A stretch of 63,209 nt of DNA from Oscillospiraceae bacterium (GTDB lineage Bacteria > Bacillota > Clostridia > Oscillospirales > Acutalibacteraceae), in the NCBI GenBank assembly GCA_902802375.1, contig CADCLS010000002.1:1-63209 (forward strand). The letters run 5' to 3'. This document shows positions 33,450 to 37,908 of this stretch, piece after piece. Position 1 is the stretch's first letter. Each line of letters starts with the position of its first letter. A program made the translations under genes and the position numbers. Below the pieces are notes generated by a model that worked only from the letters and a program-made list of their open reading frames with translations, did not search any database and was not told the DNA's origin.

Positions 33450-33478
33450 TTGAAAAAGATAATAAGTTGATATAAAAT
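33450..33478 (+). promoter_or_regulatory. Promoter of the beta-CASP hydrolase operon
   Basis: TTGAAA (33450-33455), 17 bases, TAAAAT (33473-33478). Transcription would start near 33485, leaving a leader of about 100 bases before the GTG at 33584. Confidence 0.65.
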
Positions 33479-33502
33479 ATAAGTCGGTAGGGTTTGCCGG
33501 CT

Positions 33503-33567
33503 TAAGCATAGCGCAAAATTCGTCCGCTAAAATCGAGTTCGGGTATGTGCGCTATGCTTATATTTTT
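33503..33567 (+). promoter_or_regulatory. Leader stem-loop with terminator-like T-tract
   Basis: A perfect 13-bp inverted repeat (33503-33515 with 33548-33560, TAAGCATAGCGCA/TGCGCTATGCTTA) encloses 32 bases and is followed by TATTTTT, shortly before the Shine-Dalgarno site of the next gene. It could work as an attenuator or as a processing or binding site for an RNase. Confidence 0.65.
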
Positions 33568-33583
33568 CGTTAGGAGAATTGTT

Positions 33584-35182
33584 GTGAAAATCACATTTAT
33601 CGGTGCTGCTCATGAGGTTACAGGCTCTTGTACTTTAATAAGCGCCTGCGGTAAAAACATTCTTGTTGACTGCGGACTTGAGCAGGGTATAAACATATAT
33701 GAAAATATTGATATTCCCGTGCCGTTTTGCGATATAGACGCGGTGCTTCTCACTCACGCGCATATCGACCATTCGGGAAAAATTCCTTATATTGTTGCAA
33801 ATGGCTTTAAGGGTAAAATATACTGCACTCAGGCAACGCGCAAGCTATCGGATATAATGCTTAAGGATTCGGCTCACATTCAGGAATTTGAGGCTCAATG
33901 GCGCTCGCGTAAGGCGCGCAGAGCAGGTGAGGCTGAATATGTACCGCTTTACACCGTACGCGATGCCGAAAATGCTATCAAGCTCTTCCGCGGTGTCTCA
34001 TATGGCGAAAAAATAAAGATATTTGAGGGTATAACTGTCCGTTTTTTTGATGCAGGTCATCTTTTGGGTTCGGCAAGTATAGAGGTTGAAATAGGCGAAA
34101 ACGGTATAAGCAGAACCATAGTGTTTTCGGGCGATGTCGGCAATATCGACCGACCGCTTATAAATAACCCGACGCCGGTTAAATGCGCTGATTATGTTGT
34201 TATAGAGTCCACCTACGGCGATAGGCTTCACGGAGAGCGTCCTGATTATGTAAGGCAGCTAGCGGATATTATTGAGGATACCTTTAGCCGCGGCGGTAAT
34301 CTGATAATCCCCTCATTTGCAATAGGCAGAACGCAGGAAATGCTTTATCTCATACGGATTATAAAGGAAAAGGGACTTGTAAAAACAAACCCCGATTTTC
34401 CCGTATTTATTGATAGCCCTCTGGCGCTTGAGGCGACGAAGATTTATTCTTCCGGTATGACCGATTATTATGATAATGAAACGATTGATTTGCTGTCTCG
34501 CGGTATTGACCCGATAAGCTTTAAGGGGCTAAATCTTGCTGTCACAAGCGAGGAATCAAAGAATATAAATTTTGATAACACCCCTAAAATTATAATTTCC
34601 GCCTCTGGTATGTGCGATGCAGGCAGGATAAGACATCACTTAAAGCATAATCTTTGGCGCGCCAATTCGACAATTCTTTTTGTCGGTTTTCAGGCACAAG
34701 GTACTATTGGCAGAAAGCTGATAGACGGAGAAAAGCAGATTCGTCTTTTCGGGGAGGATATAGCTGTCAAAGCAAAGATAGAAATGCTCAAGGGCGTTAG
34801 CGGTCACGCGGACAAGGACGGACTGCTTCGCTGGCTTTCCGCGATAGATACACCGCCGGAGCTGGTATTTGTAAATCACGGCGAGGATAGCGTATGCGAT
34901 GAGTTTGCAAATACGATAAGTGAAAAGCTCGGTATGAATGCTTTTGCACCGTTCAGCGGGGACTGCTTTGATATAGCAAATGGCGAATGGGTCTTTAGGG
35001 CAAGCGCTAAAAAGGTGGATAAAGGCACGGAGGCAAGGCTCAGGGCTGATACCGTTTATGCAAGGCTTTTATCGTCGCTCGATAGAATAACGCACCTCGT
35101 AAGAGGCTTTCGCGAGCGTTCAAACAAAGAAAAAGCCGCTTTTGCGGACAGTATAAATTCAGTGTGTGACAAATATGAATGA
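33584..35182 (+). CDS. Metallo-beta-lactamase/beta-CASP hydrolase (RNase-like)
   Basis: A 532-residue protein with the MBL signature LTHAHIDHSGKIPY, GDVGNIDRP, and the beta-CASP plus RMMBL parts (SFAIGRTQEMLY, SASGMCDAGRIRHHL, VSGHADKDGL). Proteins of this CPSF73/RNase J-like group cut RNA; bacterial members are often annotated as exonuclease or MBL hydrolase. Zinc ligands H, H, D, H of motif 2 are all there, so it is likely active. GTG 33584 follows TAGGAGA. The leader stem-loop just upstream may be a target for its own product. It overlaps the next gene by eight bases. Confidence 0.88.
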   Translation: MKITFIGAAHEVTGSCTLISACGKNILVDCGLEQGINIYENIDIPVPFCDIDAVLLTHAHIDHSGKIPYIVANGFKGKIYCTQATRKLSDIMLKDSAHIQEFEAQWRSRKARRAGEAEYVPLYTVRDAENAIKLFRGVSYGEKIKIFEGITVRFFDAGHLLGSASIEVEIGENGISRTIVFSGDVGNIDRPLINNPTPVKCADYVVIESTYGDRLHGERPDYVRQLADIIEDTFSRGGNLIIPSFAIGRTQEMLYLIRIIKEKGLVKTNPDFPVFIDSPLALEATKIYSSGMTDYYDNETIDLLSRGIDPISFKGLNLAVTSEESKNINFDNTPKIIISASGMCDAGRIRHHLKHNLWRANSTILFVGFQAQGTIGRKLIDGEKQIRLFGEDIAVKAKIEMLKGVSGHADKDGLLRWLSAIDTPPELVFVNHGEDSVCDEFANTISEKLGMNAFAPFSGDCFDIANGEWVFRASAKKVDKGTEARLRADTVYARLLSSLDRITHLVRGFRERSNKEKAAFADSINSVCDKYE

Positions 35183-36002
35183 GTTTTATGAGCAGATAAG
35201 ACGGAGTCTGCAAAAAAAATACCGCCGGTCAATTACTGGCAAGTTTAACAAGGCGCTTAAGATTTATAAGCTTGTAAACGAGGGCGACCGGGTTGCCGTA
35301 TGCATTTCGGGCGGTAAGGATTCGTGGCTTACGGCGGTGCTTTTTAAGGAATTAAAGAAATATTCCGATGTGCCTTTTGATGTAAAATATATTGTTATGG
35401 ACCCCGGTTATAACGAGGAAAATCGCCGTCTTATAGAGGAAAACGCGAAGCTTTTGGATATACCGGTGCAGATTTTTGAGAGTAATATTTTTGACGCGGT
35501 TCACGAAATTCCGAATTCCCCTTGCTACCTATGCGCCAGAATGAGACGAGGATATCTTTATAGCTATGCAAAAGAACTGGGATGCAATAAAATTGCTCTC
35601 GGTCACCATTATGACGATGTTATAGAAACCACTCTTATGGGACTTTTGTACGGTGCGCAAATGCAGGGTATGATGCCGAAGCTTCACAGCACAAATTTTG
35701 AGGGTATGGAGCTGATTCGCCCACTTTATCTTATAAGGGAAGAGGATATTATATCCTGGCGAGATACGAATGGACTTAAATTTCTGCGTTGTGCCTGTCG
35801 ATTTACCGAAAAGAGCGAGCAAAACGAGGAGCTTTCAAAGAGAAAAGAGATAAAAATGCTCATAAGGCAGTTAAAGACGAAAAACCCTGATGTTGAAAAG
35901 TGTATTTTTGCAAGTCTTGAAAATGTGAATATTGATACAGTCTTAGCCTATAAAACAAAGGGCAAAAAGCATTATTTTTTGGATAATTACGATAAAGACT
36001 GA
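35175..36002 (+). CDS. ttcA: tRNA thiolation enzyme, TtcA family (PP-loop, Fe-S)
   Basis: A 275-residue ATP-dependent enzyme. The PP-loop CISGGKDSW is at about residue 46-50. Cysteines that bind a [4Fe-4S] cluster in TtcA/TtuA are present as CYLCARMRRG (about 116-119) and in LRCACRF (about 205-208). LGHHYDDVIETTLMG is also typical. TtcA makes 2-thiocytidine at tRNA position 32; related TtuA/Ncs6 enzymes make 2-thiouridine. No Shine-Dalgarno site is seen; translation is probably coupled to the preceding gene (eight-base overlap). The two genes after it encode thiol-redox proteins, which suggests a link between tRNA sulfur transfer and thiol redox. Confidence 0.8.
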   Translation: MNEFYEQIRRSLQKKYRRSITGKFNKALKIYKLVNEGDRVAVCISGGKDSWLTAVLFKELKKYSDVPFDVKYIVMDPGYNEENRRLIEENAKLLDIPVQIFESNIFDAVHEIPNSPCYLCARMRRGYLYSYAKELGCNKIALGHHYDDVIETTLMGLLYGAQMQGMMPKLHSTNFEGMELIRPLYLIREEDIISWRDTNGLKFLRCACRFTEKSEQNEELSKRKEIKMLIRQLKTKNPDVEKCIFASLENVNIDTVLAYKTKGKKHYFLDNYDKD

Positions 36003-36039
36003 TTTAATCCACATAATATATGTAATTGGAGAAGGAAAT

Positions 36040-36237
36040 ATGGCTGTAAAACTTAATCCCGATAAGGAAATCGTTAAGGTAATAAAAGAAGGGCTCGAGC
36101 GTACAGGCGGATACTGTCCTTGCAGAACCGCGCGTACAGATGAGTACAAATGTATGTGCAAAGAATTCCGTGAGCAGATAGCCGACCCTGATTTTGAGGG
36201 CTTTTGCCATTGTATGCTTTATTACAAATCAAAATAA
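36040..36237 (+). CDS. Ferredoxin:thioredoxin reductase catalytic-subunit-like protein
   Basis: A 65-residue protein with six cysteines in three CxC pairs: C26/C28 (GYCPCR), C38/C40 (KCMCKEF) and C56/C58 (FCHCML). This is the signature of the FTR catalytic subunit, which holds a [4Fe-4S] cluster next to a redox-active disulfide and passes electrons from ferredoxin to thioredoxin. The protein is shorter than plant FTR and has different spacing, as in versions from anaerobes. A thioredoxin gene starts 11 bases after its stop, which strongly supports the assignment. AGGAGAAGGAAA precedes the ATG. No separate FTR variable subunit is encoded nearby. Confidence 0.82.
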   Translation: MAVKLNPDKEIVKVIKEGLERTGGYCPCRTARTDEYKCMCKEFREQIADPDFEGFCHCMLYYKSK

Positions 36238-36248
36238 GGAGAATTGTT

Positions 36249-36560
36249 ATGACAGAATTTGAAGTAAAAATTACGGATGAAAACTATGAGGAAGTAGTAT
36301 CCGGCGCCGATAAGCCGGTACTTATTGATTTTTATGCCGATTGGTGCGGACCCTGCAGAATGCTCTCTCCTATTGTTTCTCAAATCGCCGAGGAGCGCGA
36401 TGATATAATCGTCGGCAAGGTGAATGTTGACGAAAACCCGCTTCTTAGTGCAAAATTCGGAATTGTGAGCATACCTATGCTTGCGGTAGTAAAGGACGGA
36501 GAAATAACAGCTAAAAATATAGGATATTGTGATAAAGAGACGATAGAGGGTATGCTTTAA
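36249..36560 (+). CDS. trxA: Thioredoxin
   Basis: A 103-residue thioredoxin with the active site FYADWCGPCRML (C33 and C36), the conserved buried Asp region LIDFYA, and the cis-proline in SIPML. It reduces protein disulfides. No thioredoxin reductase (TrxB) gene is near; instead it follows a ferredoxin:thioredoxin-reductase-like gene, so electrons may come from ferredoxin. The stop codon shares a base with the start of the next gene (TAATG). Confidence 0.95.
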   Translation: MTEFEVKITDENYEEVVSGADKPVLIDFYADWCGPCRMLSPIVSQIAEERDDIIVGKVNVDENPLLSAKFGIVSIPMLAVVKDGEITAKNIGYCDKETIEGML

Positions 36561-37591
36561 TGAGGTTTGCTTTTTATGATACTAAGCCTTATGACAGGGA
36601 AAGCTTTGAAGCGGTAAAAGACGCCGGAATTGAGTTTAGGTTTTATGAGGATAAGCTAAGCCTTAACACCGCCGAGCTTGCTCGGGGTTGTGAGGGCGTT
36701 TGCATTTTTGTAAACGACACTGCCGACGCAGCCGTTATAGACAAGCTCTATGATTTGGGCGTCAAGGTTATAGCTTTACGGTGTGCCGGGTATAACAATG
36801 TGGATGTCCGTCACGCTTTCGGTAAAATTCATGTTTTTCATGTGCCGGCGTATTCTCCTCACGCAATAGCCGAGCATGCCATGGCTTTGCTTCTTACAAG
36901 TATACGCCGTGTTCATAAAGCTTATATAAGAACAAGGGATTATAATTTTACCCTGAACGGTCTTACCGGCTTTGACCTTTACGGAAAGACCGTAGGCGTA
37001 ATAGGTACGGGGCGCATAGGTAAGGCCTTTATAAATATTTGTAACGGCTTCGGTATGCGTGTTCTCGCATACGATAAATTCCCCGATAATTCGCTTAATG
37101 CGGAGTATACTTCGCTAGATACACTGTTTAAGGAAAGTGATATTATTTCGCTTCACTGCCCGTTAAACAAAGAAACCTATCATATGATAGGCGCTGACGC
37201 CATTAAAGAAATGAAAAAAGGTGTTGTAATTATCAACACATCGCGTGGTGCGTTGATTGATGCGGACGAGCTTTTAGAAGGAATAAAGTCACGCAAAATC
37301 GGTGCCGCCTGCCTTGATGTTTATGAGGAAGAAGCGGATATATTCTTTGAGGATTTTTCAGGGCATATTATTGACGATGATACTATTGCCCGTCTTATTT
37401 CAATGCCGAATGTTATAGTTACTTCACATCAGGCGTTTCTTACAAATGAGGCGCTTGCAGGAATAGCCAAAACCACCATAGAGAATATAAAAGAGTTTTT
37501 CGCGGAAGGCTGTTGTAAAAACGAGCTTTGTTACCATTGCGGAAAGACGGCTGACTGCGGCTCAGGCGGTAAACCCAAGAAGTGTTTTTAG
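36560..37591 (+). CDS. D-2-hydroxyacid dehydrogenase (D-lactate dehydrogenase-like) with Cys-rich tail
   Basis: A 343-residue NAD-dependent enzyme. The nucleotide loop is GVIGTGRIGKAF (about 147-158); catalytic residues lie in INTSRGALID (R229), LDVYEEE and TSHQAFLT (H290). These fit the fermentative D-lactate dehydrogenase group (pyruvate + NADH to D-lactate). After the normal end (about residue 315) comes a tail of 26 residues with six cysteines (C318, C319, C324, C327, C333, C342) including CYHCG, which is not part of the usual fold. It is translationally coupled to thioredoxin. A redox-controlled or metal-binding tail is an inference. Confidence 0.85.
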   Translation: MRFAFYDTKPYDRESFEAVKDAGIEFRFYEDKLSLNTAELARGCEGVCIFVNDTADAAVIDKLYDLGVKVIALRCAGYNNVDVRHAFGKIHVFHVPAYSPHAIAEHAMALLLTSIRRVHKAYIRTRDYNFTLNGLTGFDLYGKTVGVIGTGRIGKAFINICNGFGMRVLAYDKFPDNSLNAEYTSLDTLFKESDIISLHCPLNKETYHMIGADAIKEMKKGVVIINTSRGALIDADELLEGIKSRKIGAACLDVYEEEADIFFEDFSGHIIDDDTIARLISMPNVIVTSHQAFLTNEALAGIAKTTIENIKEFFAEGCCKNELCYHCGKTADCGSGGKPKKCF

Positions 37592-37638: not shown

Positions 37639-37715
37639 GGGGGCGTAGCTCAGCCGGTTAGAGCGCATGCTTGACATGCATGAGGTCATTGGTTCGATCC
37701 CAACCGTCCCCACCA
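37639..37715 (+). tRNA. tRNA-Val (anticodon GAC)
   Basis: Acceptor strands GGGGGCG and CGTCCCC pair over seven positions (one G-U). The D arm has AGCTCAGCCGGTTAGAGC, the anticodon stem CATGC/GCATG holds TTGACAT (anticodon GAC, reading GUC/GUU), and the T arm has GGTTCGATCCC. CCA is encoded. The tandem repeat described next starts at this CCA. Confidence 0.96.
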
Positions 37716-37908
37716 GCGGCAAGGTGCCGCACCCAATACGGGAATAAAGACTTGATAAAACAAGAGCCTATATCCCGACCGGGTGTTCTTTTTTAGGACA
37801 TCTTGTCTCGCCAGCGGCAAGGTGCCGCACCCAATACGGGAATAAAGACTTGATAAAACAAGAGCTTATTTTCCGACCGGGTGTTTTCCTATCAGTCATC
37901 TTGCTTTA
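37713..37908 (+). repeat. 98-bp tandem repeat, structured, behind tRNA-Val
   Basis: Two copies lie head to tail (37713-37810 and 37811-37908). The first 55 bases are identical (37713-37767, 37811-37865); the rest is similar. Each copy starts with CCA and contains a hairpin GCGGCA-AGG-TGCCGC, then a longer nested fold: CACCC with GGGTG, CGGGA with TCCCG, and CTTG with CAAG around ATAAAA. Copy 1 ends in TTCTTTTTT and so may terminate tRNA-Val; copy 2 has GTTTTCC instead. In copy 2 the middle helix changes from TCCCG to TTCCG, which still pairs by a G-U. No reading frame is seen. Confidence 0.85.

Follow-up and report, generated by a model that had tools for sequence, protein, structure and literature searches.

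A 65-residue predicted iron-sulfur protein encoded beside thioredoxin as a putative ferredoxin-linked thioredoxin reductase of the Oscillospirales

Which protein recharges the thioredoxin encoded in a short row of genes of an Oscillospiraceae bacterium? Thioredoxin in non-photosynthetic bacteria is usually taken to run on reduced nicotinamide adenine dinucleotide phosphate (NADPH), and the gene immediately upstream of this one encodes a 65-residue protein resembling the catalytic chain of ferredoxin:thioredoxin reductase (FTR) and ferredoxin:disulfide reductase (FDR). Both genes (36040–36560) lie in a stretch of 63,209 nucleotides (GCA_902802375.1, contig CADCLS010000002.1), referred to below as the window. 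An earlier reading of its sequence (the original prediction) proposed that electrons from ferredoxin reach this thioredoxin via the FTR-like protein and may then serve the cluster chemistry of a TtcA-like tRNA thiolase or a thiol switch in a dehydrogenase, both encoded in the same row, which would link NADH disposal to the state of ferredoxin. We consider it probable that the pair forms a two-part thioredoxin system, with electrons passing from ferredoxin to an iron-sulfur (Fe-S) reductase and on to a WCGPC thioredoxin. This route is well supported by genomics; we infer the cluster, the donor and the substrate.

The reductase and its pairing with thioredoxin

Judged by the PF02943 cut-off, its cysteine and histidine pattern and its predicted fold, the 65-residue protein is a minimal FTR/FDR catalytic chain. 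It is the sole PF02943 match in its genome and carries three CxC pairs in the motif CPC-x9-CMC-x15-CHC. The six cysteines and the histidine of CHC are invariant across 81 aligned family sequences, every one of which (81/81) matches PF02943 at E 0.001 or better. The predicted fold (pLDDT, the predicted local confidence score, 95) matches the solved structures 4tpu, 7pwe, 2pvd, 2pu9 and 1dj7; a single-sequence prediction reached pLDDT 52 and was not used. A profile built from the first family alignment found 7pwe at E 0.041, with all six cysteines aligned, and no PDB chain was found by the profile of the 81-sequence alignment or by a single-sequence search. Its very small size would also suit a structural metal-binding protein, holding zinc for example, without reductase activity. 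The invariant cysteines and histidine, the FTR/FDR fold and the linkage to thioredoxin described below make this extremely unlikely.

In FTR and FDR, a [4Fe-4S] cluster adjoins an active disulfide; ferredoxin feeds single electrons to the cluster, and the active disulfide attacks that of thioredoxin. By analogy with these enzymes, we infer a mechanism in which four cysteines of the 65-residue protein would hold a [4Fe-4S] cluster beside a redox-active disulfide formed by the other two, presumably Cys28 and Cys58. Reduced ferredoxin would give electrons singly to this cluster, and the active disulfide of the reductase would attack that of the WCGPC thioredoxin from the next gene, with neither a variable subunit nor NADPH being required. 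Once reduced, thioredoxin would serve general thiol repair and thiol enzymes.

The reductase was surveyed across 297 genomes of the order Oscillospirales, representing 145 genera, and genomes with an FTR-like gene are termed carriers. The PF02943 profile matched 59 of these genomes, or 58 after the loss of one genome with only a spurious match. Two of the 60 PF02943 matches (L055 in G070 and L099 in G198) were rejected as spurious, there being no FTR-type protein and no family-profile match at those places. The family's own profile raised the carriers to 88 of the 297 genomes and 54 of the 145 genera, with 89 copies in total, one of which (in G025) is a weak match of 47.6 bits.

A same-strand thioredoxin gene lies within 600 nt of the reductase in 62 of the 89 copies, downstream in 48 and upstream in 14, and 57 of these 62 thioredoxins carry the WCGPC motif. 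That the pairing is seen in both gene orders, in 11 of 13 families and in 39 of 54 genera points to a repeated association between the two genes. Within the window's own family it is present in four of six carriers, and the window's thioredoxin is the only PF00085 match above cut-off in its genome. A scan of named genomes returned at least 585 relatives, and the best 80 of them (the named loci) are, judged by title, mostly clostridial metagenome-assembled genomes, with four Coriobacteriia-type records. Among these 80, thioredoxin is downstream in 41 and upstream in four (three of them TlpA-like), and one reductase lies at a contig edge. The same adjacency test applied to control loci gave one thioredoxin, on the opposite strand, in 29 other dehydrogenase loci and none in 29 other TtcA loci. 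Recurring as it does in 62 of the 89 copies of the order, the pairing of FTR-like protein and thioredoxin is beyond chance.

Thioredoxin reductases of the carriers

If the pair is a complete system, what of the NADPH-dependent reductase TrxB? Its absence, noted in the original prediction, holds within the window and fails for the genome, in which a TrxB-like flavoprotein is encoded at C2:63995-64888, about 0.8 kb beyond the window end and directly after nrdD. We took as a canonical NADPH thioredoxin reductase any protein that exceeds the TIGR01292 cut-off and carries HRRxxxR. This protein fails that test, scoring 282 bits against a cut-off of 343 and reading LQDLDYFTGEE in place of HRRxxxR.

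Across the survey, TrxB above cut-off was found in 7 of 88 carriers versus 88 of 209 other genomes. Two samples of 40 genomes, drawn on the PF02943 result, were typed further; the family profile revealed seven carriers within the second sample. With the window's own genome counted, 76 of 81 genomes were classified (47 carriers and 29 non-carriers), and the other five (G090, G149, G161, G177 and G196; one carrier, four not) stand outside the motif count, having weak TrxB matches whose sequences were not retrieved. HRRxxxR was scored by eye in L251, L252 and L256. The 47 carriers comprise 15 with no TrxB-family match (E 1e-55), 26 with only a form lacking HRRxxxR and 6 with HRRxxxR, whereas 24 of the 29 non-carriers have HRRxxxR and 5 have no TrxB match. 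At E 1e-25, 14 of the 15 matchless carriers (14 of 40 sampled carriers) still have no TrxB-family match, and in 8 of these 14 thioredoxin adjoins the reductase. The broader proposal, to which we give an even chance, is that in many lineages of the order the 65-residue Fe-S protein has taken the place of the NADPH thioredoxin reductase and recharges canonical thioredoxin from ferredoxin, and that in some species it is the sole thioredoxin reductase.

Where TrxB lacks HRRxxxR, the sequence is mostly QNLxxLTGE, and nrdD is adjacent in 24 of 25 cases (a hand count that includes one QDL and one QKL variant); this form is possibly a dedicated reductase of class III ribonucleotide reductase. The same position beside nrdD is taken by at least three HRRxxxR forms (L221, L258 and L266). 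In the solved TrxB 7jyp, HRRxxxR is likewise replaced by a QNL-like motif, and the QNL type may therefore use NADH; the idea that it is unable to use NAD(P)H was dropped on the same ground. A literature search on the cofactor of this type yielded nothing useful.

These nrdD genes also bear on what the 65-residue protein reduces. The NrdD encoded before the window genome's own TrxB-like gene has a redoxin-like C-terminal domain, as does NrdD beside the TrxB-like gene in many carriers, and a 2015 title by Wei reportedly has the FDR of Methanosarcina barkeri feeding class III ribonucleotide reductase. The FTR-like protein could accordingly be an FDR for the anaerobic ribonucleotide reductase, reducing that domain, with thioredoxin adjacency secondary. 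An NrdD match no more than 2.5 kb from the FTR-like gene occurs in 1 of 89 copies and 2 of 80 named loci. This role is unlikely given that the NrdD domain already has a neighbouring reductase (the 24 of 25 QNL-type genes that adjoin nrdD, the window genome's own included) and that the FTR-like gene adjoins a free-standing thioredoxin in 62 of 89 copies.

Several points weigh against the ferredoxin-linked thioredoxin system favoured here. Among the 89 copies, thioredoxin lies further off in 3, a contig ends nearby in 2, and the fetched flanks hold none in 22. Nor does a thioredoxin adjoin the reductase in 34 of the 80 named loci, 4 of which have one 0.8–0.9 kb downstream, and many of the surveyed genomes are fragmented assemblies. 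The TrxB contrast gives p 1e-5 when carrier labels are shuffled within families, a statistic that still contains genus-level kinship. A TrxB-like flavoprotein is retained in the window's own genome and in another 31 of the 47 classified carriers (25 without and 6 with HRRxxxR), which makes it possible that this flavoprotein is a second reductase of the same thioredoxin, in the window's genome as elsewhere. In Methanosarcina, according to PMC6262447, neither FDR nor NTR is known to reduce canonical thioredoxin.

Other neighbours and the gene row

Neighbour counts cover matches up to 2.5 kb from the reductase, across the 89 survey copies and the 80 named loci. Ferredoxin-like matches occur in 4/89 and 7/80 (one of the seven on the other strand), and five loci (L090, L098, L166, L178 and L205) share the order reductase, ferredoxin, membrane 4Fe-4S protein, thioredoxin. 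TlpA counts (56 and 49) mostly represent the adjoining thioredoxin itself. DsbD/CcdA-type matches (3/89 and 7/80) come with a TlpA-like gene in between, and the two genes were observed just 5' of the reductase in L073, L051, L305, L134, L141, L144, L170, L197, L200 and L207. This context may reflect the passing of ferredoxin-derived thiols across the membrane. Superoxide reductase, rubrerythrin/rubredoxin or flavodiiron matches were found in 7/89 and 10/80 (two on the other strand). One row (L069) reads flavodiiron protein, superoxide reductase, FTR-like reductase and rubrerythrin, and similar oxygen-defence clusters, with rubrerythrin by profile match, occur in L154 and L156.

Such neighbourhoods, together with the glutaredoxin fusion in 7pwe, are consistent with a general ferredoxin:disulfide reductase for oxygen defence and other redoxins, with thioredoxin as one client among several. 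Oxygen-defence and DsbD/CcdA contexts are much rarer than thioredoxin adjacency, and we regard this broader role as possible though doubtful. It is compatible with the dedicated ferredoxin-thioredoxin route rather than opposed to it.

Profile matches and rechecked coordinates bore out the gene calls of the original prediction, including four genes in a row with their families, short gaps and six-cysteine dehydrogenase tail, behind a beta-CASP metallo-hydrolase gene (Table 1). The metallo-hydrolase gene, whose GTG start at 33584 is our own reading, overlaps the start of the ttcA-like gene. Gaps of 37 nt and 11 nt separate the FTR-like gene from the ttcA-like and thioredoxin genes, respectively, and the thioredoxin and dehydrogenase genes overlap at TAATG. 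Promoter and terminator scans performed no better than shuffles.

Table 1. Coordinates and profile support of the five genes in the row
Feature	Coordinates	Strand	Basis
Beta-CASP/RMMBL metallo-hydrolase	33584..35182	+	PF10996 131.1 bits, PF07521 65.1 bits (for 33590-35182)
TtcA-like PP-loop protein, tRNA thiolase type	35175..36002	+	PF01171 61.6 bits, cut-off 27; motifs SGGKDS, CYLC, CAC
Minimal FTR/FDR-type catalytic protein, 65 residues	36040..36237	+	PF02943 28.9 bits, cut-off 22
Thioredoxin, WCGPC, 103 residues	36249..36560	+	TIGR01068 105.6 bits, cut-off 96.8
D-2-hydroxyacid dehydrogenase (D-lactate type), Cys-rich C-terminal tail	36560..37591	+	PF02826, PF00389

The TtcA equivalog model NF007972 scores 194.4 bits, below its cut-off of 272, and we therefore limit the name to TtcA-like. 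None of the specific NCBIfam D-lactate dehydrogenase-type models exceeds its cut-off for the dehydrogenase (best 254.8 bits, cut-off 540). Six cysteines fall within the last 28 residues of that protein, and its tail (37480–37591; NELCYxCG...C...KCF), which may bind metal, is shared by most of the 30 relatives retrieved from the order. We rejected the idea that the tail is special to this operon, as the same tail occurs in the dehydrogenase family elsewhere without the reductase.

A joint pathway, in which the reductase and thioredoxin would support the cluster chemistry of TtcA and switch the dehydrogenase through thiols of its tail, draws on the local gene order, the short gaps and the TAATG overlap. 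As a weak sign in its favour, matches reaching into the dehydrogenase tail are commoner in carriers (23/51 vs 26/146, p 3e-4, uncorrected for kinship). The linkage itself is confined to the window: one of the 89 copies, that of the window, has TtcA and the dehydrogenase no further than 2.5 kb from the reductase, and none of the 80 named loci does. Within about 1.5 kb, 29 other TtcA loci hold no FTR, thioredoxin or dehydrogenase gene, nor do they show an adjoining beta-CASP metallo-hydrolase gene, and 29 other dehydrogenase loci hold no reductase; conserved linkage of ttcA or of the dehydrogenase was rejected on these counts. A same-genus TtcA (L270, 85% identical) has none of the partner genes nearby, and carriers less often have the close TtcA subfamily (3/26 vs 33/91, p 0.016). 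We thus consider the joint pathway very unlikely; the ttcA-like and dehydrogenase genes are local neighbours outside the reductase-thioredoxin machine.

The original prediction accordingly survives in part. Of the gene linkage it envisaged, the thioredoxin portion recurs and the remainder is peculiar to the window. Its extension to tRNA thiolation and a thiol switch runs into the refuting condition that it had itself named, a lack of conserved linkage, and the tail is a family trait. The step from ferredoxin through the FTR-like protein to thioredoxin gains strong indirect support from family, fold, thioredoxin adjacency in both gene orders, some ferredoxin neighbours and the rarity of NADPH-type TrxB among carriers.

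Beyond the row, a tRNA-Val gene (37639–37715) directly precedes two tandem copies of a 93-nt unit (37713–37903), which are 89% identical at a spacing of 98, the first beginning at the CCA end of the tRNA gene.

Relation to known ferredoxin-linked systems

If the proposed system is correct, the whole thiol pool of some species would be tied to the ferredoxin pool of fermentation, and thiol balance, oxygen tolerance and the response to fermentation state would track that pool across much of a clostridial order. The 65-residue protein would, if the sole reductase, be the smallest thioredoxin reductase that we know of. Such a single-domain protein would also serve as a minimal model of FTR chemistry and give a hint of the origin of the photosynthetic heterodimer.

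A search of the PMC literature returned no title on a short FTR-like protein in Clostridia, which is no proof of absence, and the literature searched yielded neither the 65-residue form and its recurrent link to canonical thioredoxin nor the rarity of NADPH-type TrxB among carriers. A survey of clostridial thioredoxin systems treats FFTR as the ferredoxin-linked type, and its main text does not use the term FTR (PMC10880999). FFTR likewise carries electrons from ferredoxin to thioredoxin in anaerobic Clostridia, but as a TrxB-family flavoprotein rather than an Fe-S protein.

FTR catalytic homologues are described from other bacteria, and FDR from both archaea and bacteria, the variable chain being restricted to oxygenic phototrophs (PMC9025218, PMC7278568, PMC6262447). 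FTR of oxygenic phototrophs (1dj7, 2pu9, 2pvd) has catalytic chains of 107–110 residues, compared with 65 here, and is described as a heterodimer with the variable chain (PMC9025218). That chain (PF02941) is absent from all 41 carrier genomes searched; one control genome was positive as expected. FDR of Methanosarcina acetivorans (4tpu) is a 169-residue chain with 31% identity to the present protein over the aligned part, and Methanosarcina FDR is described as reducing a non-canonical thioredoxin and is not known to act on WCGPC ones (PMC6262447). The glutaredoxin/FDR fusion of Desulfotalea psychrophila (7pwe) has the same catalytic core, with six aligned cysteines, and joins redoxin and reductase in one chain of about 194 residues, whereas here a stand-alone reductase is encoded beside the thioredoxin gene.

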